Positions 20,622-27,930 of a DNA stretch of 29,539 bases are shown in pieces (positions within the stretch are counted from its first letter, which is position 1; each line of letters starts with the position of its first letter). The translations under genes were made by a program, and so were the position numbers. Source of the stretch: a virus; IMG/VR virus record IMGVR_UViG_3300042868_004804, positions 1 to 29,539 of that record. One strand, written 5' to 3'. The notes beneath the pieces are model-generated. The model had not been told where the DNA came from. It did not search any database and was given only the letters and a program-made list of their open reading frames with translations.

Positions 20622-20637
20622 TGTGATGTACATCATA
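20622..20637. promoter_or_regulatory. Crp/GlxR-like operator
   Basis: TGTGATGTACATCATA fits the TGTGA-N6-TCACA operator of Crp-family regulators with one mismatch and contains the central TA of the actinobacterial GlxR consensus. It lies between the two divergent promoters of the boundary region. Confidence 0.4.
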
Positions 20638-20651
20638 GAACAGATGTTCGA
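20636..20651. promoter_or_regulatory. SOS-box-like palindrome, imperfect
   Basis: TAGAACAGATGTTCGA matches the actinobacterial LexA box TCGAAC-N4-GTTCGA at 11 of 12 fixed positions. It abuts the Crp-like site and lies about 100 nt upstream of the first rightward promoter. Confidence 0.45.
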
Positions 20652-20753: not shown

Positions 20754-20785
20754 TTGTCAGACCCCTAGTGTATAGTGAAACTATA
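20754..20785 (+). promoter_or_regulatory. TGTCA-N11 promoter 1
   Basis: TTGTCA, GACCCCTAGTG (11 nt), TATAGT. A perfect 6-bp dyad TATAGT-GAA-ACTATA covers the -10. Drives 20808 and 20994. Confidence 0.85.
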
Positions 20786-20807
20786 AGACAAAAAGAAAGA
20801 GGTCAAA

Positions 20808-20993
20808 ATGACTTACTTAGTAACAAACAAGAGAGACGGTATCTCTAACGAATACCTCTCTATTCACTCTGCCTTGCAAATGGTTGCAAGTTGCTATGAC
20901 GGTGCAGGTATCACTTGCGAAATCGTAGACACCCAAACGGGTGAACAGGTAGAAATCTACCGTAATCCTCTAACAGGTTGGAAGGTGGCTTAA
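20808..20993 (+). CDS. Small protein of unknown function
   Basis: 61 aa, not recognised. MTYLVTNKRDGISNEYLSIHSA is followed by a beta-type segment (ITCEIVDTQTGEQVEIYRN), suggesting a small alpha/beta fold; two cysteines at about 29 and 37 are not a CxxC. GAGGT precedes the ATG. It is first in a two-gene operon under promoter 1, ending immediately before the next ATG. Confidence 0.7.
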   Translation: MTYLVTNKRDGISNEYLSIHSALQMVASCYDGAGITCEIVDTQTGEQVEIYRNPLTGWKVA

Positions 20994-21143
20994 ATGGCTT
21001 ACACTAAAATCAAAAATGCAAGACTGCTAGTAGATGCAGTCAATGACCTAGAGCGTACTCTAAAGTATGACCCAACCAATCAACGAATGATTGACTACTA
21101 CAATCTACAAATCCAACTCTTGACTAGGCGTGTCTACAGGTAA
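20994..21143 (+). CDS. 49-aa helical basic protein of unknown function
   Basis: Starts directly after the upstream stop (TAA then ATG), so translation is coupled. The product is almost all helix: KIKNARLLVDAVNDLERTL, then NQRMIDYYNLQIQLLTRRVYR, with heptad-like leucines and a basic C-terminus. Promoter 2 begins 2 nt after its stop. Confidence 0.65.
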   Translation: MAYTKIKNARLLVDAVNDLERTLKYDPTNQRMIDYYNLQIQLLTRRVYR

Positions 21144-21145
21144 AA

Positions 21146-21168
21146 CTGTCAGACCTCTAGTGTAAGAT
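21146..21168 (+). promoter_or_regulatory. TGTCA-N11 promoter 2
   Basis: CTGTCA, GACCTCTAGTG (11 nt), TAAGAT. No composite module before it and no clear dyad over the -10. Drives 21202, 21369 and 21536. Confidence 0.8.
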
Positions 21169-21201
21169 AAAACTAACAAACAAACGAAAGGAAGTCACAC
21201 A

Positions 21202-21369
21202 ATGACTGAACTAATCTTAATCGCACTAATCGCAGGTAGTAGTTTCGGCTTACTGTTTGCATACATTCAACAGATGATGAATAAGGATAACTACATAGCA
21301 GAATTGCAATCTGCTCTAGTAGATGCATACACAGAATTAGAATTTGCAAAGTTAGGAATAAATAAATAA
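21202..21369 (+). CDS. 55-aa single-helix membrane protein
   Basis: An N-terminal hydrophobic helix (LILIALIAGSSFGLLFAYI) is followed by a polar, helical tail (NYIAELQSALVDAYTELEFAKLG). The GAAAGGAAG leader gives ribosome binding. First gene of a three-gene operon with TAATG overlaps. Function unknown. Confidence 0.65.
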   Translation: MTELILIALIAGSSFGLLFAYIQQMMNKDNYIAELQSALVDAYTELEFAKLGINK

Positions 21370-21536
21370 TGATGACTAGAAAAGACTATGTAAAAATTGC
21401 AGAGATTCTAAACTCATACCACTTGGACATTGACTCACAAGTGTTTGAGGATTTGATTTCAGACTTTCAAACATTTTTCAAAAGAGATAATTCTAATTTC
21501 GACTTAACACGATTCAGAGATGCGGTAATCAAATAA
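21369..21536 (+). CDS. Small helical protein of unknown function
   Basis: 55 aa from the ATG in TAATG (a second ATG follows at once). Helical and charged: KDYVKIAEILNSY, then FEDLISDFQTFFKRDN, then FDLTRFRDAVIK. This resembles many small phage proteins with no known role. Overlaps its neighbours by one base at each end, indicating coupled translation. Confidence 0.65.
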   Translation: MMTRKDYVKIAEILNSYHLDIDSQVFEDLISDFQTFFKRDNSNFDLTRFRDAVIK

Positions 21537-21688
21537 TGAAATTCGTACATAACAAAATTGACGGAACTTTCGTAATTGGAATTAGTTTTTCAAATTACTT
21601 TAGCAAAAACCTTGGTCGCAAAAATACTTCCCTGATTTTTGACTTAGGAAAACATTCGTTTGCATTTGTGTTGAGAGGTGAATACTAA
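21536..21688 (+). CDS. 50-aa basic beta-type protein of unknown function
   Basis: Starts in a TAATG overlap. Alternating hydrophobic strands (GTFVIGISFSNYF, then TSLIFDLGKHSFAFVLRG) and a positive charge suggest a small beta-sheet. Last gene of its operon; it is followed within a few bases by composite module B. Confidence 0.6.
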   Translation: MKFVHNKIDGTFVIGISFSNYFSKNLGRKNTSLIFDLGKHSFAFVLRGEY

Positions 21689-21694
21689 AAGCAG

Positions 21695-21811
21695 AGCTGA
21701 TCGAACACCTGTTCGAGAAGCCCGCGCCCCGTTTTCCACAGCCTGTTAAGAAGTTGTGGATAATCCCCCTGGAAAATTTCGTTATCTTTTTGTTATCAAA
21801 ATAGGTAGAAA
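21695..21811 (+). repeat. Composite intergenic module B, with an inserted SOS box
   Basis: AGCT at 21695, then the SOS palindrome, then CCGCGCCCC (21722-21730). TTTTCCACA (21732-21740) faces a perfect DnaA-box 9-mer TGTGGATAA (21755-21763), forming an inverted repeat TCCACA/TGTGGA around GTTAAGAAG. CCCCCTGGAAAA follows. Leads into promoter 3. Confidence 0.8.
21701..21716. promoter_or_regulatory. LexA/SOS box, perfect palindrome
   Basis: TCGAACACCTGTTCGA is a perfect 6-4-6 palindrome that fits the actinobacterial and Gram-positive SOS operator. It lies about 110 nt upstream of promoter 3. Confidence 0.6.
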
Positions 21812-21840
21812 TTGTCAGACCCTTGTGGTAAGTTATAACT
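21812..21840 (+). promoter_or_regulatory. TGTCA-N11 promoter 3
   Basis: TTGTCA, GACCCTTGTGG (11 nt), TAAGTT, with TGG as extended -10. Dyad AGTT-AT-AACT over the -10. Drives only the IF-2-like gene at 21860. Confidence 0.85.
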
Positions 21841-21859
21841 ATAACGAAAGAGGTTAAAA

Positions 21860-22051
21860 ATGAGAGTCTATGAAATTGCTAAGCAGTTAGACATTCCTTC
21901 AAAAGATGTAAAGATGTATTTAGAATACATTGGTCAGCCCGTCAAGTCTGCATCGTCAGGCGTTGAACCAATGTTTGCTGAAATAGTTATCAAAAGAATA
22001 AACAAGACCTATGAGGAATTTGTGCCTTGTTGGTCATTCCCACCATTCTAA
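21860..22051 (+). CDS. Free-standing IF-2 N-terminal domain (IF2_N-like) protein
   Basis: 63 aa. MRVYEIAKQLDIPSKDVKMYL, then GQPVKSASSGVEP is the IF2_N signature found at the start of bacterial translation initiation factor IF-2 (R-V-x-E-L-A-K-x-L, S-K-x-V, VKSASSxVE). Only this domain is present, followed by one helix (EIVIKRINKTYEEF) and an aromatic, proline-rich end; the GTPase and later domains are absent. It might compete with host IF-2 for the 30S ribosome or another partner, adjusting initiation during infection. GAGGT precedes the ATG. It is alone under promoter 3, and promoter 4 starts 2 nt after its stop. The domain call is firm; the role is inference. Confidence 0.85.
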   Translation: MRVYEIAKQLDIPSKDVKMYLEYIGQPVKSASSGVEPMFAEIVIKRINKTYEEFVPCWSFPPF

Positions 22052-22052
22052 A

Positions 22053-22075
22053 ATGTCAGACCTATCTGATAGAAT
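22053..22075 (+). promoter_or_regulatory. TGTCA-N11 promoter 4
   Basis: ATGTCA, GACCTATCTGA (11 nt), TAGAAT, extended -10 TGA. The leader has CCTACAAGAAA. No clear dyad. Drives 22108, 22389 and 22528. Confidence 0.8.
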
Positions 22076-22107
22076 AAATACCCTACCTACAAGAAATGAG
22101 AAATAAA

Positions 22108-22392
22108 ATGGGACTAAACTTCGCAAATGAATTATCCACTATGGATACAATGCCACTTGAGGCACAGATTAACCTACACTTGCAATACAATTGCTATCCT
22201 CCAGTACCGTCCTCAATGGTACAGCCTTGCATAGATGCTATTAACGCAATTTGGAATGAGGACTACTTTGCAGAAATTGAATTGCCTCAAGGAATTTCGT
22301 GGCGTGGTAGTAACTATGCACCTGCCTCTGCAATTGTTGAGGGTCATCGTTTAGATGCTTGGGTATCTGAACCTGAATGGGAGGAAGAATGA
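22108..22392 (+). CDS. 94-aa phage protein of unknown function
   Basis: Starts at the ATG at 22108, chosen because other operons of this arm place the ATG about 10-15 nt after the CCTAC/AAAGAAA leader; an upstream ATG at 22096 would lie inside that leader. The product begins MGLNFANELSTMDTMPLEAQI, has a tryptophan-rich middle (AINAIWNEDYF, then GISWRGSNYAPASAI) and an acidic end (EPEWEEE). Not recognised. Its stop overlaps the next ATG (ATGA). Confidence 0.65.
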   Translation: MGLNFANELSTMDTMPLEAQINLHLQYNCYPPVPSSMVQPCIDAINAIWNEDYFAEIELPQGISWRGSNYAPASAIVEGHRLDAWVSEPEWEEE

Positions 22393-22526
22393 AATTTATA
22401 GCAACACCTGAACAACTTAGGGCTAGGCTTGAGTTGCGTAGGAGCAACGCTTCTGCCAAGCACGTTAATAAAAAGAAATACACACGCAAGAAAAAACACG
22501 TTGGCAAATCTACCTTTTGGGATTAG
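22389..22526 (+). CDS. 45-aa highly basic protein
   Basis: MKFIATPEQLRARLELRRSN is followed by a lysine/arginine-rich stretch (KHVNKKKYTRKKKHVGK), suggesting binding to RNA or DNA. Translation is coupled to the upstream gene through ATGA. Not a recognised family. Confidence 0.6.
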   Translation: MKFIATPEQLRARLELRRSNASAKHVNKKKYTRKKKHVGKSTFWD

Positions 22527-22527
22527 T

Positions 22528-22659
22528 ATGAAATTTCTATTTGCACTATTTGTAATTGCACTTCTTGTATTGCCTGTCATTGGTTTTGTTGATGGACTTG
22601 GTTATAAAAAAAATGATAATGAGTATTTAGATTCTGCAAGGTGGAGTGACGGAAAGTAG
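22528..22659 (+). CDS. 43-aa single-helix membrane protein
   Basis: A strongly hydrophobic N-terminal helix (FLFALFVIALLVLPVIGFV) with a short polar tail ending in RWSDGK. It could be membrane-anchored or a secreted peptide; no lipobox is seen. It starts one base after the upstream stop. Last gene before composite module C. Confidence 0.6.
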   Translation: MKFLFALFVIALLVLPVIGFVDGLGYKKNDNEYLDSARWSDGK

Positions 22660-22663
22660 GAGC

Positions 22664-22738
22664 AGCTCGAAAGAGCCGCGCCCTGTGGATAACTTTTATT
22701 TAAGAAGTTTAAGAAAAGATCCTGGATTATCCTGAAAA
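22664..22738 (+). repeat. Composite intergenic module C
   Basis: AGCTC-GAAA-GAG can form a short GNRA-capped hairpin (GCTC/GAGC), followed by CCGCGCCC, a perfect DnaA-box 9-mer TGTGGATAA (22684-22692), the direct repeat TTTAAGAAGTTTAAGAA (22699-22715) and CCTGAAAAA running into promoter 5. It is one of the two most complete copies. Confidence 0.85.
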
Positions 22739-22770
22739 ATGTCAGACCCTTATGCTATGATGAAATCATA
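22739..22770 (+). promoter_or_regulatory. TGTCA-N11 promoter 5
   Basis: ATGTCA, GACCCTTATGC (11 nt), TATGAT, extended -10 TGC. Perfect dyad TATGAT-GAA-ATCATA. Drives 22791. Confidence 0.85.
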
Positions 22771-22790
22771 CCTACAAAGAAAGATGAAAA

Positions 22791-23021
22791 ATGTTTACCC
22801 TTAACAATATTCGTAAAACTGATGACTTAAGTGGATACTATGTAGATTCTCATTCATGCCCTATATGTAGCGATACCCTAACAATCTATGTGTCTTCTGA
22901 TGAATTGTATCGTTATAATCAAGGGGCTTATGCACAAGATGTAATATCAAGAGTGCCACCATCTTGGCGTGAACGTTTTATTAGTGGTATTTGTGAAGAC
23001 TGTTGGGATCTTGAAGATTAA
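22791..23021 (+). CDS. Double-CxxC zinc-finger-like protein
   Basis: 76 aa. CPIC near residue 23 and CEDC near residue 68 enclose a helical, aromatic insert (DELYRYNQGAYAQDVISRVPPSWRERF). The spacing suggests one zinc site holding two ends of a small fold. It ends acidic. The CCTACAAAGAAAG leader lies before the ATG. Single-gene operon between promoters 5 and 6. Function unknown; a protein- or nucleic-acid-binding role is possible. Confidence 0.72.
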   Translation: MFTLNNIRKTDDLSGYYVDSHSCPICSDTLTIYVSSDELYRYNQGAYAQDVISRVPPSWRERFISGICEDCWDLED

Positions 23022-23025
23022 TAAA

Positions 23026-23054
23026 ATGTCAGACCCTTGTGATAAGATAAATCT
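23026..23054 (+). promoter_or_regulatory. TGTCA-N11 promoter 6
   Basis: ATGTCA, GACCCTTGTGA (11 nt), TAAGAT, extended -10 TGA. Dyad AGAT-AA-ATCT. Drives the six-gene run 23079-24046. Confidence 0.85.
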
Positions 23055-23078
23055 ATACCTACTAAAGAAAGAAACACT

Positions 23079-23201
23079 ATGTCAGATACAGAACTAATCA
23101 AGAATTTATTCGAGGGTGTCATAGATGACAATGCCCTTGCAAAATTGTCTAAAGAAGAATTAGATGCTATTAACAAAATGCTAACGGAAGCAGGTTACTA
23201 A
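23079..23201 (+). CDS. 40-aa acidic helical protein
   Basis: MSDTELIKNLFEGVIDDNAL, then a helix KLSKEELDAINKMLTEAGY. Small and acidic, not recognised. The AAAGAAAGAAAC leader precedes the ATG. First gene in the longest operon of this arm, separated by one base from the next. Confidence 0.6.
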   Translation: MSDTELIKNLFEGVIDDNALAKLSKEELDAINKMLTEAGY

Positions 23202-23202
23202 A

Positions 23203-23517
23203 ATGGGTGCTAGAGTAAATTACATCTTTGACGATGGAACAGATTCATTAGTTGTATTGTATTCCCATTGGGGTGCAGATAGTATTGCTGAAGATTTAGA
23301 CATGGCTTTCACTCATGCTATTTCTCGTCAAGGTGATTATTCATACTGGACAAGAATGGTTATTAGTTATTTAATTAAAGACCAATTACTAGACCCAACA
23401 GGATTTGGTATCTTTGCAATTTCCCGTCAAGAAATGGATACGCTTGACAACTGGGGTGACAATGTGATAGTATCTTGTAAAACAGCCACGCACGATTATC
23501 AAGGAGTGTTCGTATAA
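23203..23517 (+). CDS. 104-aa phage protein of unknown function
   Basis: MGARVNYIFDDGTDSLVVLYS, then HWGADSIAEDLDMAFTHAISR, then YWTRMVISYLIKDQLL, with GFGIFAISRQEMD near the end. It is a compact alpha/beta protein of a type often seen in phage small-gene arms; no named family. Its stop overlaps the next ATG (TAATG). Confidence 0.68.
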   Translation: MGARVNYIFDDGTDSLVVLYSHWGADSIAEDLDMAFTHAISRQGDYSYWTRMVISYLIKDQLLDPTGFGIFAISRQEMDTLDNWGDNVIVSCKTATHDYQGVFV

Positions 23518-23666
23518 TGGGACAAATGAAAACAATAGAAATGATTCTAATGGAAAACCACCCCAATGGAATCTTTAATGAAGACGATGTGTGGGAAGCC
23601 ATTGCAGAAGCAACTGGAATGGATTATTCAGAAATAGCAGACGGAGATCTAGCAGAATGGTTATAA
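23517..23666 (+). CDS. 49-aa acidic protein of unknown function
   Basis: Starts in a TAATG overlap. MGQMKTIEMILMENHPNGIF is followed by DDVWEAIAEATGMDYSEIAD and an acidic end, a pattern that could be a small helical fold. Function unknown. Confidence 0.6.
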   Translation: MGQMKTIEMILMENHPNGIFNEDDVWEAIAEATGMDYSEIADGDLAEWL

Positions 23667-23668
23667 AA

Positions 23669-23845
23669 ATGAAAACTCAAACAGAACTAGCAGAAGAAAT
23701 GGCAAATGAATTTGCTGCTTGTGGAAGTGAAGACATTACAGTATTTGCAATCCTAGATGTATTAGCATCAACAGGTATTTCACTTATTGAAAAATCTTTA
23801 AGTTCCCCTGTACAAGAATTGTATGCGTTGTATGAAACTATTTAA
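23669..23845 (+). CDS. 58-aa helical protein of unknown function
   Basis: ATG at 23669, two bases after the upstream stop; an upstream in-frame extension lies wholly within the preceding gene and is not needed. Helical and acidic: KTQTELAEEMANEFAACGSE, then ITVFAILDVLASTGISLIEK. The next gene starts inside its last codons. Confidence 0.6.
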   Translation: MKTQTELAEEMANEFAACGSEDITVFAILDVLASTGISLIEKSLSSPVQELYALYETI

Positions 23846-23960
23846 TCGCAAACCAGAATTAACAGAAGATGAAATATATTCTAAGTTAGATAAACTAATG
23901 GGAGAAATGTCTTCTATTGATATTTATCTTGAATACCTCGAACTAAGGGAAGGGATGTAA
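23832..23960 (+). CDS. 42-aa charged helical protein
   Basis: Overlaps the upstream gene by 14 nt in another frame. MKLFNRKPELTEDEIYSKLD, then LMGEMSSIDIYLEYLELREG is helical with alternating charge. Ends in TAATG. Function unknown. Confidence 0.55.
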   Translation: MKLFNRKPELTEDEIYSKLDKLMGEMSSIDIYLEYLELREGM

Positions 23961-24046
23961 TGGTCCTTGGATTCTTGCTAGTGTTTTTTATATATTCAAT
24001 TACTATAATGACAAGTATTTATTTTAGTAATGAAATTAAAACCTAG
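23960..24046 (+). CDS. 28-aa membrane micropeptide
   Basis: A single hydrophobic helix (VLGFLLVFFIYSITIMTSIYF) with a short polar end. It begins in a TAATG overlap, and its stop TAG overlaps the AGCT that begins composite module D. Short, but coupling and position support it. Confidence 0.5.
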   Translation: MVLGFLLVFFIYSITIMTSIYFSNEIKT

Positions 24047-24136
24047 CTCGAAGGATCCGCGCCCCAAGACCTGGCATTTGTCAAGTCTTTAAGATGTGAT
24101 CTAAATCACCCCTGAATTACCTGAATGGATTTGATT
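24045..24136 (+). repeat. Composite intergenic module D
   Basis: AGCTCGAAGGAT leads into CCGCGCCCC (24057-24065). Instead of a DnaA box there are two hairpins, AAGAC/GTCTT (24066-24089) and GTGAT-CTAA-ATCAC (24096-24109), then CCCCTGAATTACCTGAA. Leads into promoter 7. Confidence 0.75.
24095..24110. promoter_or_regulatory. Crp/GlxR-like operator
   Basis: TGTGATCTAAATCACC fits TGTGA-N6-TCACA with one mismatch and has the central TA of the GlxR consensus. It lies about 27 nt before the promoter-7 box and also forms the second hairpin of module D, so it may simply be a hairpin. Confidence 0.4.
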
Positions 24137-24168
24137 TTGTCAGACCTTTCTGGTATAGTAATACTATA
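24137..24168 (+). promoter_or_regulatory. TGTCA-N11 promoter 7
   Basis: TTGTCA, GACCTTTCTGG (11 nt), TATAGT, extended -10 TGG. Perfect dyad TATAGT-AAT-ACTATA. The leader contains a hairpin GGGAA-ACAA-TTCCC (24177-24190) before the ribosome site. Confidence 0.85.
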
Positions 24169-24209
24169 ACAACAACGGGAAACAATTCCCCAAAAGAAAA
24201 GAGAAGCAA

Positions 24210-24365
24210 ATGGCAAAGACAATCGCCCCAACTGTTGGCTCACAGTTCGTAACGGCAAAGAGCAAAGTAACTGGTATCGTTCAGGAAGTAGTAAAGAACG
24301 CTAACGGCTCAATGCGTATCCGTCTTGACGTAAATGGTCAAGACCGTTGGACTACTGCTAAGTAG
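24210..24365 (+). CDS. 51-aa small beta-type protein in its own transcription unit
   Basis: MAKTIAPTVGSQFVTAKSKV, then TGIVQEVVKN, then SMRIRLDVNGQDRWTTAK: short alternating strands and a basic charge suggest a small SH3- or KOW-like barrel that may bind nucleic acid. I recall similar short proteins in actinophages but cannot name a family. Codon use is richer in C-ending codons than in its neighbours, as in highly expressed genes. It has a dedicated promoter (7), a 5' leader hairpin, a GAGAAG ribosome site and a strong terminator directly after it. Confidence 0.72.
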   Translation: MAKTIAPTVGSQFVTAKSKVTGIVQEVVKNANGSMRIRLDVNGQDRWTTAK

Positions 24366-24378
24366 TTAAGACAAGTTT

Positions 24379-24412
24379 GGGTGGGGTGTTTATCTTCGTT
24401 TTCGCCCCACCC
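24379..24412 (+). terminator. Strong hairpin terminator after the 51-aa gene
   Basis: GGGTGGGG (24379-24386) pairs perfectly with CCCCACCC (24405-24412) around an 18-nt loop; outer bases AGTTT and AAACT can extend the stem across a TT bulge. The U-run is short. The promoter-8 box overlaps the outer stem at 24418, so ending one unit and starting the next share sequence. Confidence 0.8.
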
Positions 24413-24417
24413 TTAAA

Positions 24418-24446
24418 CTGTCAGACCTCTATGATAAGATAAATCT
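24418..24446 (+). promoter_or_regulatory. TGTCA-N11 promoter 8
   Basis: CTGTCA, GACCTCTATGA (11 nt), TAAGAT, extended -10 TGA. Dyad AGAT-AA-ATCT. The leader has CCTACAAAAGAAAGA. Drives 24471 and perhaps the tRNA. Confidence 0.82.
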
Positions 24447-24470
24447 ACCTACAAAAGAAAGAAGAACACT

Positions 24471-24947
24471 ATGGGACTAGATATGTACCTTCGTGCAAGC
24501 GAATACGTTTACCGTCACAACTTTAATCGTCAAGAAGATGAAGACACGATTAACCCAATCTTTAATGAAATTGTTAGTCGTCTTGAATTAGAAGATGTAA
24601 TTGACAAGAGTGGCTTTGCTGGTATTACTGTTGATGTACCAATGGGCTACTGGCGTAAATCAAATATGATTCATCATTGGTTTGTAAATAACTTAGCAGA
24701 TGGTGTTGATGAATGTCAGCCAATCTATGTTCGTAGAGAAAATCTAGAACAGTTAAAAGAACTTTGCATTGAAGTAATTGCTAATCCAGAAAGTGCAGAA
24801 GAATTATTACCAACAGGTAGTGGATTCTTTTTTGGCTCTACTGACTATGATGAATACTACTTTGGAGATTTGAACGATACTATTGGCATTATTAACAGAT
24901 GCCTTGAAAGTAAGTTCGATAGTTTTGAGTATCAAGCCTCTTGGTAA
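24471..24947 (+). CDS. Conserved MGLDMYL-type phage protein of unknown function
   Basis: 158 aa. It belongs to a widespread phage family that starts MGLDMYL and contains GYWRKSNMIHHWFVNN, then DECQPIYVRRENLEQLKELC, then LLPTGSGFFFGSTDYDEYYF. All these blocks are complete here, and the length is usual. The conserved His, Cys and aromatic residues suggest a binding or catalytic site, but no activity is known to me. The GAAAGAAGAAC leader precedes the ATG. It is followed by an 84-nt gap and the tRNA-Asp gene. Confidence 0.8.
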   Translation: MGLDMYLRASEYVYRHNFNRQEDEDTINPIFNEIVSRLELEDVIDKSGFAGITVDVPMGYWRKSNMIHHWFVNNLADGVDECQPIYVRRENLEQLKELCIEVIANPESAEELLPTGSGFFFGSTDYDEYYFGDLNDTIGIINRCLESKFDSFEYQASW

Positions 24948-25031
24948 GATAACTCAATTAATTAAAAGGTAGCCAATACCGCCAGGTTGTTGGTGATTGA
25001 ATGATAGAGATCTAAATCCTGGCACACACTT
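24948..25031 (+). other. Gap between the MGLDMYL-type gene and the tRNA
   Basis: No gene is seen. GCCAGG (24981-24986) can pair with CCTGGC (25018-25023) just upstream of the tRNA across a long loop, which may mark a processing site or be chance. Confidence 0.35.
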
Positions 25032-25105
25032 GGTCTGGTGGCTCAGTTGGTTAGAGCACCGCCCTGTCACGGCGGAGGTCGTGGGTTCAAGTCCCATCCA
25101 GATCG
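25032..25105 (+). tRNA. tRNA-Asp (anticodon GTC)
   Basis: A complete 74-nt cloverleaf: acceptor GGTCTGG with CCAGATC (one G-T pair), D-stem GCTC/GAGC, anticodon stem CCGCC/GGCGG with loop CTGTCAC (anticodon GTC), variable loop AGGTC, T-stem GTGGG/CCCAT with loop TTCAAGT, and discriminator G. CCA is not encoded. It is the only tRNA in the window. The AGCT that begins composite module E follows 4 nt after its end. Confidence 0.95.
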
Positions 25106-25108
25106 CAG

Positions 25109-25167
25109 AGCTGAGCCGCGCCCCCTGTGGATAACTTATTTAAGAAGTTTAAGAAATCTCCCTGAAA
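25109..25167 (+). repeat. Composite intergenic module E
   Basis: AGCTGAG, CCGCGCCCC (25116-25124), a perfect DnaA-box 9-mer TGTGGATAA (25126-25134), TTTAAGAAGTTTAAGAA (25139-25155), then CCCTGAAA directly into promoter 9. It is the most compact complete copy and serves as the reference for the module. Confidence 0.88.
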
Positions 25168-25199
25168 ATGTCAGACCCTTGTGGTATGATTTCATCATA
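25168..25199 (+). promoter_or_regulatory. TGTCA-N11 promoter 9
   Basis: ATGTCA, GACCCTTGTGG (11 nt), TATGAT, extended -10 TGG. Perfect dyad TATGAT-TTC-ATCATA. Drives 25221. Confidence 0.85.
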
Positions 25200-25220
25200 A
25201 CCTACTAGAAAGAAGTAACA

Positions 25221-26018
25221 ATGCCAAACTGGGTATTCAATTCACTTGTTGTATCAGGTGAGCAATCAGAATTAGATAAGATGGTTGCACAACTTAACCA
25301 GCCATTCGTAAAGCATTTCCCTGAGCATAAATTTGAGAACGGTGAAATTGTTTGGGTTGCAGATGAACAGCACTATGACAATCCTGTCTTTGCTTTTTGG
25401 AACATTGTAAAGCCAACAGACCTTGAAGCATACTATGAAACAGATGTGCACAAGGGTAACAAGAACATCAAGAAAGATGATGATGGTAAATTTGATGGTG
25501 AATCTTTTATGCAAGAGTTTGTTCGCTCTATGAAAGAAGACCAAGACTGGTATCATTGGAACTGCCGTAACTGGGGAACTAAGTGGGACGTAGCAGTAGA
25601 TAATAAGTCTGAGTATCCTAACACTATTAAAACTGTTAATGATGATGGTTCTGTTATGTACCATTTCCAAACCGCTTGGAGTCCTGTTGGCGAGGTTCTA
25701 ATGAAACTATCAGAACAATACCCAACTCTTGAGTTTGACTATGAGTATGAGGAAGAGCAGGGTTGGGGTGGAAGATGCACATTTGAAGGTGGAGAAGACA
25801 TAGCCTGTGAACAATGGGACATTCCAGAATCCCACGCTGACCACAAAGCACTAGATAGAGAGTGCCAATGTGAGTATGACGACACACCAGAGTATTGGTA
25901 TCAAGATTGCCCTGTGGATACCACTAAATTCAAGTGGGATTCAGAACTAGAGGAATGGGTAGAATTGTCAGACCTCTCTGATACACTAGTTTCAACAAAC
26001 AACCTACAAGGAGAATAA
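25221..26018 (+). CDS. DUF1281/YubB ferredoxin-like (Api92-like) protein
   Basis: 265 aa. MPNWVFNSLVVSGEQSELDKM at the start, then FWNIVKPTDLEAYY, then YHWNCRNWGTKWDVAVD, then FQTAWSPVGEVLMKLSEQYP matches the plan of the DUF1281/YubB-like ferredoxin-fold family found in phages and plasmids, whose function is unknown. The C-terminal 80 residues are acidic and rich in Cys and Trp (ECQCEYDDTPEYWYQDCPVD), possibly an added metal-binding tail. The CCTACTAGAAAGAAG leader precedes the ATG. The last 18 codons contain promoter 10 for the next gene. Confidence 0.8.
   Translation: MPNWVFNSLVVSGEQSELDKMVAQLNQPFVKHFPEHKFENGEIVWVADEQHYDNPVFAFWNIVKPTDLEAYYETDVHKGNKNIKKDDDGKFDGESFMQEFVRSMKEDQDWYHWNCRNWGTKWDVAVDNKSEYPNTIKTVNDDGSVMYHFQTAWSPVGEVLMKLSEQYPTLEFDYEYEEEQGWGGRCTFEGGEDIACEQWDIPESHADHKALDRECQCEYDDTPEYWYQDCPVDTTKFKWDSELEEWVELSDLSDTLVSTNNLQGE
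25965..25987 (+). promoter_or_regulatory. TGTCA-N11 promoter 10, inside a coding region
   Basis: TTGTCA, GACCTCTCTGA (11 nt), TACACT, extended -10 TGA, within the last codons of the 25221 gene, where it encodes LSDLSDTL. A CCTACAAGGAG leader follows. The -10 is the weakest of the set and the dyad is absent. Confidence 0.7.
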
Positions 26019-26020
26019 TC

Positions 26021-26530
26021 GTGGAATTCACAACAAGTGAGCCAACATTCGGAATACCAGCAACTATAACACCAATGTCAGAGCAAGTAGCAGTAACACC
26101 AGCGTATGACCCAAAGGCAACTATCTTAGTACGCAAGGGTTACTACTATGGCACACCTTCAGATTCAAAGTTTGACTTAGAAAATGCAGACGACATTTCC
26201 AGAACTTACTGGAGGCTAGATGCACTACAAGAAACTAACAACCGTAACTCACGAGCACAAGACAAGTTAAAAGATTATCTTGTTGAGAACTTTGATGAGA
26301 TTGGTGAAGAACACGCAACTGAAATTGCAAACATCTTTGGCATTGACTTGTCCAAGGAAGTTGAAGTTGAATTCAATGTAACAATCAAAGCAACTGTTTC
26401 TATTCCTGTCAATGAAGATGCTTCTGATTTAAGTGTCTATGACTTTGACATCACAATCGAATCAAATGAGTCTAAGTATGAGATTCAAGAATTTGATGCA
26501 GACATTGATTCAATAGACGAAAGATACTAG
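26021..26530 (+). CDS. 169-aa phage protein of unknown function
   Basis: Starts at a GTG with AAGGAG 7 nt upstream, the best ribosome site of this arm. The N-terminus is low-complexity (TTSEPTFGIPATITPMSEQVA), then KATILVRKGYYYG, a helical block (YLVENFDEIGEEHATEIANIF) and beta strands (EVEVEFNVTIKATVSIPV), ending strongly acidic. I have seen similar proteins in actinophages but know no function. It follows the YubB-like gene by 2 nt and has the intragenic promoter 10. Confidence 0.7.
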   Translation: MEFTTSEPTFGIPATITPMSEQVAVTPAYDPKATILVRKGYYYGTPSDSKFDLENADDISRTYWRLDALQETNNRNSRAQDKLKDYLVENFDEIGEEHATEIANIFGIDLSKEVEVEFNVTIKATVSIPVNEDASDLSVYDFDITIESNESKYEIQEFDADIDSIDERY

Positions 26531-26553
26531 AATTCTCTTCTGGTAGGTAGAGA

Positions 26554-26580
26554 GGTCCTGGGCATGACAATAAACTGCCC
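26554..26580 (+). other. Possible structured RNA element, copy 1
   Basis: GGTCCTGGGCATGAC followed by AATAAACTGCCC. GGGC pairs with GCCC around a 13-nt loop, and flanking GAGAG (26550-26554) pairs with CTCTC. GTC before and GAC inside could form a second, pseudoknotted stem. A near-identical copy lies at 27777-27804 with a compensatory change in the stem. It sits after the 26021 gene and just before module F. Confidence 0.55.
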
Positions 26581-26587
26581 CTCTCAA

Positions 26588-26667
26588 AGCTTGATCCGCG
26601 CCCCGTTATCAAATCGTTATTTAAGAGGTTAAGAAAATGCCCCTGAAATGTCTGATTAGATTAGGAA
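26588..26667 (+). repeat. Composite intergenic module F
   Basis: AGCTTGAT, CCGCGCCCC (26596-26604), no DnaA box (GTTATCAAATCGTTAT instead), TTTAAGAGGTTAAGAA (26620-26635), CCCCTGAAATGTCTGA, then promoter 11. The CCCTGAAATGTCTGATTAGAT stretch looks like a degenerate extra promoter box. Confidence 0.8.
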
Positions 26668-26699
26668 ATGTCAGACCTCTGTGTTATAGTAAGACTATT
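26668..26699 (+). promoter_or_regulatory. TGTCA-N11 promoter 11
   Basis: ATGTCA, GACCTCTGTGT (11 nt), TATAGT, extended -10 TGT. Dyad ATAGT-AAG-ACTAT (5 bp). The leader carries AGGAG. Drives 26727. Confidence 0.85.
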
Positions 26700-26726
26700 A
26701 AACAAACTACCTCCTAGGAGAAAAAA

Positions 26727-27716
26727 ATGGCTGATGCAGTCGAAGTTATAAATGGTGTTGGTTCTATGTATTCATTTCGTGAACCAGCGTGGCATGGTTT
26801 GGGAACTGTTGTTACAGAAGAACATACCACTCGTGAGGTTATGGACATAGCCCACTTATCAAATTGGAATGTACGTCTTGAAGATGTGCAACTACCTGAA
26901 GATTACACATCAAGTAAATCTAACTTTCTTGTTGTTCGTGACCACCCAGAAGACGGACACCCAGATGTTCTAGCAGTTGTTGGTGAGCGTTACCAGACTT
27001 TGCAGAATGAAGAACTGTTTGCTTTTGCGGATAATCTTCTTGACGGTGCTCGTTGGGAAACAGCAGGTTCATTAAAGAATGGTCGTGTCGTGTTTGGTTC
27101 TCTTGCTCTTGAGCGTGAAACTGTACTTGACCCCAATGGCGTTGCAGATGTTGTTAAGTCATACTTACTTGTAAACACATCACATGACGGTTCGATTGCT
27201 GTTCAAGCGTCAATCACTCCTGTTCGTGTTGTGTGTGCAAATACCCTTAACATGGCTCTTCGAGGTGTCAAGCAGTCTTTCAAGATGCGTCACACATCAA
27301 CACTTGAGGGTCGTATCATGGTTGCAAGAGAAGCACTTGGCTTGGCTAACACTTACATGGACGAGTTTGACAAAATGGCTCAAGAACTTATTGAGAAAGA
27401 AATCACCAAGTCTACTTTTGCAAAGATTGTTGAGACTGCATACCCAATGCCAAAGAAAGATGCAAAGGGTGCAATGACCAAGTGGGAAACCAAGATTGAA
27501 TTGCTTGATGAGATTTTTGCATCAGATACTAATTCAATGATTAACAATACTGCTTGGGGTGCTTTCAACACATTGACTGAAAGACTTGACTGGTATCGTT
27601 CTGCCCGTAATGGCAACAACGAAGGAATCCTTGCAAGTGCATCAGGCTTTGACCCAGTTATCACAGCAGAGAAAAACAAACTACTTTCCATTGTGAAAGA
27701 GGTTGCCTTCGCCTAG
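26727..27716 (+). CDS. DUF932 protein (phage/plasmid-like TIGR03299 type)
   Basis: 329 aa. The family start is clear: FREPAWHGLGTVV, then NWNVRLEDVQLPE, then LAVVGERYQTLQNEELFAFAD, then GSLKNGRVVFGSLAL, with SYLLVNTSHDGSIAVQASITPVRVVCANTLNMAL and FKMRHTSTLEGRIMVAREALG in the centre. This is the full-length DUF932 family common in actinophages and plasmids; its function is unknown, though it is often encoded near replication or small-gene regions. AGGAG lies before the ATG. It is the largest gene of this arm and has its own promoter (11) and a structured element after its end. Confidence 0.9.
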   Translation: MADAVEVINGVGSMYSFREPAWHGLGTVVTEEHTTREVMDIAHLSNWNVRLEDVQLPEDYTSSKSNFLVVRDHPEDGHPDVLAVVGERYQTLQNEELFAFADNLLDGARWETAGSLKNGRVVFGSLALERETVLDPNGVADVVKSYLLVNTSHDGSIAVQASITPVRVVCANTLNMALRGVKQSFKMRHTSTLEGRIMVAREALGLANTYMDEFDKMAQELIEKEITKSTFAKIVETAYPMPKKDAKGAMTKWETKIELLDEIFASDTNSMINNTAWGAFNTLTERLDWYRSARNGNNEGILASASGFDPVITAEKNKLLSIVKEVAFA

Positions 27717-27776
27717 TAGGATAAAATCTGAACGGAAGAGACTCTCAGTTACACAGAGTATAAATAAGGGTAGCAC

Positions 27777-27804
27777 GGTCCTGAGCATGACCACTAAACT
27801 GCTC
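27777..27804 (+). other. Possible structured RNA element, copy 2
   Basis: GGTCCTGAGCATGACC followed by ACTAAACTGCTC. The stem GAGC/GCTC replaces GGGC/GCCC of copy 1, a compensatory base change. GGTC and GACC can pair as a pseudoknot. It lies between the end of the DUF932 gene and module G. ACTCT/AGAGT (27741-27759) forms another small hairpin before it. Confidence 0.55.
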
Positions 27805-27814
27805 ACCATCTATG

Positions 27815-27897
27815 AGCTGCAAAGCCCGCGCCCCCTAATTATTTTATTAATCATTTTATGACGCATTAAGAAATCGCCTGGAATAACCTGGGCAAAA
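27815..27897 (+). repeat. Composite intergenic module G
   Basis: AGCTGCAAAGC can form a GCAA-capped mini-hairpin, then CCGCGCCCC (27826-27834). No DnaA box; an AT-rich insert, CATTAAGAAA, CCTGG twice and GGCAAAAATG lead into promoter 12. Confidence 0.75.
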
Positions 27898-27930
27898 ATG
27901 TCAGACCCTTATGATAGGATACAAAGTATC
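27898..27930 (+). promoter_or_regulatory. TGTCA-N11 promoter 12
   Basis: ATGTCA, GACCCTTATGA (11 nt), TAGGAT, extended -10 TGA. Dyad GATAC-AAA-GTATC (5 bp), different in sequence from all others. Drives the run from 27950 to the window end. Confidence 0.85.

Follow-up and report, generated by a model that had tools for sequence, protein, structure and literature searches.

The viral DNA analysed here, a window of 29,539 nucleotides (positions 1 to 29,539 of IMG/VR record IMGVR_UViG_3300042868_004804), contains two short sequences that resemble each other, copy 1 (GGTCCTGGGCATGACAATAAACTGCCC) and copy 2 (GGTCCTGAGCATGACCACTAAACTGCTC), and the question raised by this locus is what structure they form and which role it plays at the end of a gene. 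The initial annotation regarded them as a pair of small structured RNA elements conserved almost base for base, with a stem changed from GGGC/GCCC to GAGC/GCTC and a possible H-type pseudoknot, each downstream of a gene and upstream of a module with a promoter. The features of the locus are the following:

26021 to 26530, plus strand: ORF of 169 aa without a Pfam match, its stop 24 nt upstream of the first S1 base of copy 1
26550 to 26585, plus strand: candidate outer stem GAGAG/CTCTC around copy 1, paired in some relatives and with an A.C mismatch in others
26554 to 26580, plus strand: copy 1
26555 to 26580, plus strand: pseudoknot of copy 1, S1 GTC 26555-26557 with GAC 26566-26568, S2 GGGC 26560-26563 with GCCC 26577-26580
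26558 to 26559, 26564 to 26565 and 26569 to 26576, plus strand: loops of copy 1, CT, AT and AATAAACT
26596 to 26604, plus strand: CCGCGCCCC repeat between copy 1 and the promoter-like repeat, one of the seven GCGCCC sites of the window
26669 to 26697, plus strand: promoter-like repeat TGTCAGACC, 3' of copy 1, opening the DUF932 unit
26727 to 27716, plus strand: DUF932 gene, its stop 60 nt upstream of copy 2
27741 to 27759, plus strand: hairpin ACTCT/AGAGT between the DUF932 stop and copy 2, seen by eye and present in most copy-2 relatives too
27777 to 27804, plus strand: copy 2 and its pseudoknot, S1 GGTC 27777-27780 with GACC 27789-27792, S2 GAGC 27783-27786 with GCTC 27801-27804
27781 to 27782, 27787 to 27788 and 27793 to 27800, plus strand: loops of copy 2, CT, AT and ACTAAACT
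27826 to 27834, plus strand: CCGCGCCCC repeat between copy 2 and the promoter-like repeat
27899 to 27921, plus strand: promoter-like repeat TGTCAGACC, 3' of copy 2

Copy 1 is thus laid out as GTC-CT-GGGC-AT-GAC-AATAAACT-GCCC and copy 2 as GGTC-CT-GAGC-AT-GACC-ACTAAACT-GCTC, with an S1 of 3 bp in the former and 4 bp in the latter. Their near-identity holds with one correction, the loop before TAAACTG being one base shorter in copy 1, which places one gap in the alignment. Both the stem change in S2 and the cross-pairing of GTC with GAC are present, and the position between a gene and a promoter-bearing module is confirmed, each copy preceding a TGTCAGACC repeat (at 26669 and 27899). In relatives copy 1 is found as the same element with a 3-nt junction loop, ATT or ATA. 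The outer stem around copy 1 is partly compensatory (GAGAG/CTCTC, GAAAG/CTTTC) and mismatched in several relatives, and its conservation is not claimed. The chance expectation of the copy-2 pattern with at most three mismatches is 0.00 (100 shuffles of the window), and in a relaxed scan of the window the two copies score 9.0 and 8.5, everything else reaching 6.5, the level of the shuffles. A recent duplication, raised in the initial annotation, is rejected, as each copy has its own orthologues and is conserved at its own place in relatives.

Taken over its homologues, the element follows the formula S1, CT, S2, AH, S1', (N)nAAACT, S2'; it is ca. 27 nt long and its A-rich loop ends with AAACU. 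Judged from the pairing and covariation described below, it is almost certainly a compact H-type RNA pseudoknot of the sense strand, with strong covariation. A scanner run on all fetched loci and the window gave 372 matches in 230 of 243 records and none on the reversed sequence; many of these loci had been fetched by the pattern itself, therefore the independent tests are the loops in the DUF932 set, the covariation in S1, and the free pairs of S2. The DUF932 set comprises 68 IMG/VR loci fetched by the DUF932 protein, the element not being used to find them, and in these the loop letters, matched with no pairing requirement, gave 177 distinct matches. At least three of the four pairs of each helix could form in 65 of the 122 sense matches and in 0 of the 55 antisense ones, which, together with the S1 covariation, bears out the H-type pseudoknot proposed for the window. 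In alignment A1 (48 elements of 27 nt out of 67 with at least one perfect helix) compensatory double changes occur at all four S1 pairs and 93.2% of the S1 cells are paired. Over the whole structure, 85 cells in A1 are changed on both sides vs. 20.8 in shuffles, and the covariation score is 0.668 vs. 0.208 (reached in 0 of 500 shuffles); when the partners are slid, the score stays at or below 0.120 and pairing reaches 47% at most. Taken by itself, the number of further pair types in A1 is no higher than in shuffles (128 of 500). Strong covariation among further homologues was thus found, which the initial annotation had made the measure of its proposal.

The pairing of S2 in A1 results from selection of the sequences, and S2 was tested by a pattern scan with its two inner pairs left free; these formed standard pairs in 81 of 83 distinct contexts. 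Among all loci collected up to that stage, a perfect S1 was accompanied by at least three S2 pairs in 185 of 189 elements, and a perfect S2 by at least three S1 pairs in 257 of 272, 11 of the remaining 15 being, by eye, a version whose junction loop is longer. On the sense strand the terminal pairs of S2 are G.T 14 times vs. 3 for A.C at one end and 7 times vs. 0 at the other; G.T being tolerated and A.C rare is as expected for a transcribed RNA. The loop letters CT, A, and AAACT are strictly kept; they were search anchors too.

The element is spread over phages of cyanobacteria, mycobacteria, Lactobacillus, Paracoccus, and gut Firmicutes, over Crassvirales, and over scattered bacterial chromosomes. 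In IMG/VR, 7 stretches matched the copy-2 pattern and at least 119 a looser one. Whole-record search of 18 virus records found up to five copies in each of 16, with 0 control matches; since the records had been chosen for holding the element or DUF932, these figures do not measure its prevalence. Within a record the copies share one strand in 15 of the 16; the exception, G001, has three on one and one on the other. Named phages with the element comprise Paracoccus phages ParMal1 and ParKuw1, Mycobacterium phage Labelle, Lactobacillus phage phi jlb1 (with relatives among the BLAST matches listed), D6E, Synechococcus phages S-EIVl (one S2 mismatch), S-H35, and S-RIM4, Lentibacter phage ICBM2, cr7_1 and cr124_1 of Crassvirales, and three Ca. 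Heliusvirales gut phages. When the first 12 named phages were searched over the whole record, the pattern was found in 10, with one control match, in cr7_1; S-EIVl, with one S2 pair mismatched, and Mwe-JY13, whose loop differs, were missed. Among sampled genomes it was found in 17 of 247 in the phylum of G019 and in 6 of 246 in that of G021, each number including the centre genome, a known match; control matches were 0. Set aside as chance or unclear were 17-base tail-fibre and Listeria matches, Flavobacterium and Prevotella rows, and one Pseudomonas plasmid row, and as weak, cr56_1 and Mwe-JY13. Escherichia phage Mangalitsa has a degenerate copy (L256, 797-826) with an S1 of 2 bp, shortly 3' of the stop of a superinfection immunity gene. 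BLAST with one S1 variant, a weak search, gave no match in 20,395 E. coli records. A restriction to RNase J hosts was considered and rejected because of the weakness of that search and the degenerate element in Mangalitsa. Tandem pairs were found five times, 3 nt apart in L201 and L227 (Anaerolineales contigs) and 34-69 nt apart in the viral L033, L081, and L188.

On bacterial chromosomes the element was found in 52 contigs (L191-L242), where a conserved short ORF of ca. 16 codons, with a consensus, by eye, of roughly MKRFMIPRVAHC-x-E-G-C, ends before or within the pseudoknot. In a simple test a peptide frame of the (A/T)(H/R)C type ended at or in the element in 43 of the 52 contigs, and by eye also in L193 and L196. 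Silent third-position changes suggest that the ORF codes for a translated peptide. The short ORF is sometimes situated near arsR-, merR-, or metal-ATPase-like ORFs, as seen by eye.

The placement of the element is tied to the upstream stop codon. For 61% of the 103 viral elements and 59% of the 110 elements of the DUF932 set, the end of an ORF of 60 or more codons lies 0-20 nt upstream, the respective values being 6% and 5% for random positions and 12% and 2% for the opposite-strand reading. In phages the stop-to-element distance peaks at 4-7, 13-14, and 19 nt, and phage ORFs of at least 100 codons are co-directional with the element by 124 to 3 upstream and 103 to 6 downstream. In the deposited annotation a stop lies 4-10 nt upstream in 6 of 18 fetched records (ParMal1, Labelle, S-EIVl, S-H35, S-RIM4, and NatCom_3357) and ca. 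24-46 nt upstream in D6E, phi jlb1, ParKuw1, and ICBM2, in the last of which the element is also within the annotated start of the next CDS; the remaining records have no co-directional gene annotated so close upstream (except Mangalitsa) or a weak element. In the bacterial set an ORF of at least 60 codons ends within 20 nt in 6%, which equals random, and upstream ORFs are co-directional by 16 to 10; this signal is missing since the upstream ORF has only ca. 16 codons. TGA is rarer beside the element (18 of 140 stops, compared with 345 of 1162 for ORFs of 150 codons or more). A readthrough or frameshift signal was rejected, as the stop distance ranges between 3 nt and more than 60 and the choice of stop bears no sign of recoding.

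What follows the element is more varied. A tRNA-Asp gene starts 4-8 nt downstream of 21 of the 110 DUF932-set elements, so that in those copies the element cannot be a terminator, and a pseudoknot with a tRNA within 130 nt is present at 18 of 41 distinct DUF932 gene ends; in the crAss-like phage cr124_1 an annotated tRNA-Val starts ca. 5 nt downstream. A ribosome-binding site with a start codon lies within 50 nt downstream of 35 of 103 viral, 18 of 110 DUF932-set, and 13 of 50 bacterial copies. The phage sequence after S2' is T-rich and G-poor (35-59% T at +3 to +7 in the protein-fetched set), and 19 of 90 and 24 of 80 distinct phage tails contain a TTTT at +1 to +14, as opposed to 7 and 5 at +41 to +54. 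Some tails, such as those of L012, L139, and L184, contain textbook U tracts; a U-rich tail is present in only some phage copies, most tails having no TTTT, and T runs are not enriched in bacteria (8 vs. 8 of 48). In two gut phages (L252 and L253, 1501-1685) the DUF2800 RNA (RF02960) starts 1 nt after the pseudoknot, being its neighbour and not the same element, and in a third (L260) the downstream sequence is similar by eye; the published DUF2800 motif may be a part of a larger unit.

For the flanking genes the longest ORF ending within 120 nt was taken as the upstream one, and 73 of 77 distinct upstream and 56 of 65 distinct downstream ORFs were scanned. Among the first 25 of 33 upstream PHROGs families, Hsp20 (5), phrog_871 (5), and a Gp2.5-like ssDNA-binding protein (4) lead, with SSB, cold-shock protein, helicase, clamp loader, and ATPases occurring singly; among the first 25 of 46 downstream families helicases and nucleases are prominent, with two members or one each. 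Pfam agrees with PHROGs, and a UvrD helicase is among the upstream proteins. Hsp20, Gp2.5-like protein, SSB, and cold-shock protein are usually abundant, and from these few named families and general knowledge we infer that upstream genes tend to encode abundant proteins and downstream ones scarce enzymes. No toxin of the ToxN, AbiQ, or CptN type was found among the 22 upstream and 25 downstream Pfam families (E up to 0.001; 73 and 56 proteins), and a type III toxin-antitoxin RNA was rejected, there being no toxin family beside the element. One upstream gene, of an A2 member, codes for a TROVE/Ro60-type protein, of a family working with small structured RNAs and exonucleases.

The pseudoknot can be replaced. 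If long junction loops and a single unpaired position in S2 are tolerated, it is present at 37 of the 41 distinct DUF932 gene ends, and at each of the other four (L168, L180, L182, and L190) a strong hairpin occupies the same place (-24.8 to -34.5 kcal/mol, z -5.0 to -6.2); the nested folding of the 37 pseudoknot ends has a median z of -0.2. In L168 a 12-bp hairpin with no U tract lies directly before the same tRNA-Asp gene. This swap, L168 included, indicates conservation of a stable structure between the stop codon and the following feature, rather than of one particular sequence. In L123/L132 and in L126/L127 the DUF932 end with the pseudoknot is near-identical and the sequences diverge right after S2', as if modules had been exchanged at the 3' end of the pseudoknot.

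The reading we favour, at a little short of even chances, is that the element is a 3'-terminal cap protecting mRNA against 3'-to-5' exonucleases. The 3' end would arise downstream, by termination at a U-rich tail, by RNase P cutting at the adjacent tRNA, or by an intergenic endonuclease; the pseudoknot would then halt exonucleases (of the PNPase, RNase R or II class) within a few bases of the stop codon; the upstream coding region would survive and be expressed more highly than its downstream neighbour. Where a tRNA adjoins, RNase P cutting would create a new 3' end a few bases beyond the pseudoknot. Stacked on each other and clamped by the A-rich loop, the two helices would form a firm obstacle out of a very short sequence. 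The cap is favoured because it accounts for the link to the upstream stop codon, the sense orientation, the hairpin swap, the neighbouring tRNA, the tandems, and the U-rich tails; the divergence of L123 and L132 right after S2' and the usually abundant proteins named upstream speak for it too. Of the functions proposed in the initial annotation, a 3'-end or processing element fits best, and a ligand-binding element fits poorly, given a junction loop of mostly 2 nt, flanking genes that have nothing in common, and the substitution by a plain hairpin. Against the cap counts the strictness with which the loop letters are kept, beyond the needs of a generic block. The stop codon and the pseudoknot are separated by a hairpin with a T run in D6E (-16.8 kcal/mol) and in phi jlb1 (-12.3 kcal/mol), where the pseudoknot would not cap the main 3' end, and 14 of 51 bacterial copies are followed within 80 nt by a terminator-like hairpin, which should already protect the end and so also counts against the cap. 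Further points against it are the short ORF that precedes the bacterial copies in place of a long gene, the lack of T-run enrichment in bacteria, the restriction of U-rich tails to some phage copies, and, as regards abundant upstream proteins, the small number of named families and the presence of a UvrD helicase, a clamp loader, and ATPases among them.

The main rival is an intrinsic terminator or pause signal of a pseudoknot type, in which the pseudoknot would take the place of the terminator hairpin and, with the U-rich tail, stop or pause the polymerase, lowering expression of the next gene. The T-rich, G-poor phage tails with their early TTTT excess and occasional textbook U tracts agree with it, as do the position of the window copies before promoters and the lack of a following tRNA at three of the four substitute hairpins, the one in L180 carrying a T-rich sequence; yet the tRNA genes 4-8 nt downstream need readthrough, many copies have a ribosome-binding site and start codon within 50 nt, TTTT is missing from most tails and not enriched in bacteria, and the L168 hairpin has no U tract, which makes a terminator unlikely, if deserving serious attention. 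Placement directly before tRNAs, ribosome-binding sites, and the DUF2800 RNA (with a 1-nt gap) would suit a block working in the other direction, an analogue of xrRNAs in bacteria, at which RNase J coming from upstream would halt, sparing the downstream cistron, tRNA, or structured RNA. The tandem copies, two pairs of them 3 nt apart, the negative one-variant BLAST of E. coli, and the named hosts, which we take to belong mostly to groups having RNase J, speak for such a roadblock. It is nevertheless improbable, as the distance is short to the upstream stop and widely varying to the next gene, a promoter intervenes between element and next gene in the window, and the E. coli phage Mangalitsa has a degenerate version.

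A role in translation, with the pseudoknot barring post-termination ribosomes from drifting into the next ribosome-binding site or insulating that site, would account for the tight post-stop placement with its distance peaks and for the many copies filling the gap between the stop codon and the next ribosome-binding site; we consider it decidedly improbable, as the stop distance is not fixed, many copies have no start nearby downstream, and the lower share of TGA beside the element carries no sign of readthrough. A riboswitch regulating translation was rejected in view of the unrelated downstream genes and the junction loop of mostly 2 nt. There is, finally, a very slight chance that the element is a protein or small-molecule binding site regulating the upstream gene, or a boundary element for ssDNA or recombination. 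The strictly kept loop letters, although also search anchors, and the module breakpoints right at the 3' end would fit, but the genes and hosts are unrelated, the junction loop is mostly of 2 nt, plain hairpins substitute, and the tolerance of G.T over A.C with the fixed sense orientation is that of a transcribed RNA.

Extended beyond single genes, the 3' cap reading becomes a more tentative proposal, namely that a portable exonuclease-resistant pseudoknot of ca. 27 nt, a prokaryotic counterpart of viral xrRNAs, may serve as a standard gene-end part in phages of several host phyla and in some bacteria, and that it may determine, singly, as tandem copies, or together with RNase P cleavage at a neighbouring tRNA, which cistrons of a phage transcript persist. 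If the exonuclease block is true, it explains unequal expression of neighbours in dense phage operons with no extra promoters, and it provides a gene-end marker for annotation and a 27-nt stabilizing part for expression constructs. Phages available by name, such as Lactobacillus phage phi jlb1 and Mycobacterium phage Labelle, carry the element, which makes the proposal testable now.

Structures stabilizing gene ends of bacterial mRNA are already known. REP elements and intercistronic or 3' stabilizing stem-loops are situated after the coding region, make the upstream message last longer, and are not bound to a particular partner gene. The element is likewise placed after the coding region, and plain hairpins replace it at 4 of 41 DUF932 gene ends; it differs in being a conserved pseudoknot with fixed loop letters found across phages of several host phyla, whereas theirs is a long hairpin. 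In a 2010 comparative genomics study, regulation by 3' UTR structure is termed "highly unusual" in bacteria (PMC2864571), while the present small motif is found repeatedly at the ends of genes in phages whose hosts are unrelated. The same study describes the L17 downstream element (RF01708), a structured RNA in a possible 3' UTR, tied to one ribosomal protein gene, and the STAXI motif (RF01728), a simple pseudoknot near genes for ssDNA-binding proteins in Enterobacteriales, repeated at least twice, sometimes in tandem, and often with UUCG loops (PMC2864571). With the former the element shares its nature as a structured RNA in a possible 3' UTR, but it follows many unrelated genes, and RF01708 does not match it; with STAXI it shares the simple pseudoknot, occasional tandems, and ssDNA-binding protein neighbours, with no cmscan match to RF01728. 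The PreQ1-I riboswitch and the luteovirus frameshift pseudoknots are small H-type pseudoknots with an A-rich third loop. The element is alike in these respects but lies after a stop codon and has a junction loop mostly of 2 nt.

The initial annotation could name no RNA family for the pair, and none of Rfam 15 fits: cmscan of the window placed no family on the element (one scan with E up to 10), and the sole match of one scan near copy 1 is a chance one of 7.3 bits (cut-off 70) on the other strand at its edge. In the named phages only GP20-b (RF03003) fell on the element, below threshold, in phi jlb1 (20.5 bits vs. a cut-off of 36.2), and its cmscan consensus differs from the element in loops and stems. 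Literature searches, covering open-licence papers, gave no description of the element among the matches listed, and a search with the sequence string gave one unrelated paper; a conserved pseudoknot stabilizing gene ends across phages would thus be new as far as the open-licence literature searched shows.

In the window the TGTCAGACC units end in the two pseudoknots, one tRNA gene, and one strong hairpin (24379-24412, z -4.1); folding of three further unit ends gave z -2.2 for one and no notable structure for the other two. The promoter-like repeats, each consisting of TGTCAGACC followed shortly by a TATAAT-like box, number 13 (at 20755-27899 and 20275; 12 on the plus strand and one on the minus) and open many small units of the early region, the one at 25966 lying within an ORF. 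The seven GCGCCC sites of the plus strand (20659, 21724, 22678, 24059, 25118, 26598, and 27828) are all located between gene ends and promoters, and three of them run into TGTGGATAA, which we take to be DnaA-box-like. Two palindromes, TCGAACACCTGTTCGA at 21701-21716 and TAGAACAGATGTTCGA at 20636-20651, resemble the actinobacterial SOS box consensus, and some early units may be LexA-controlled.
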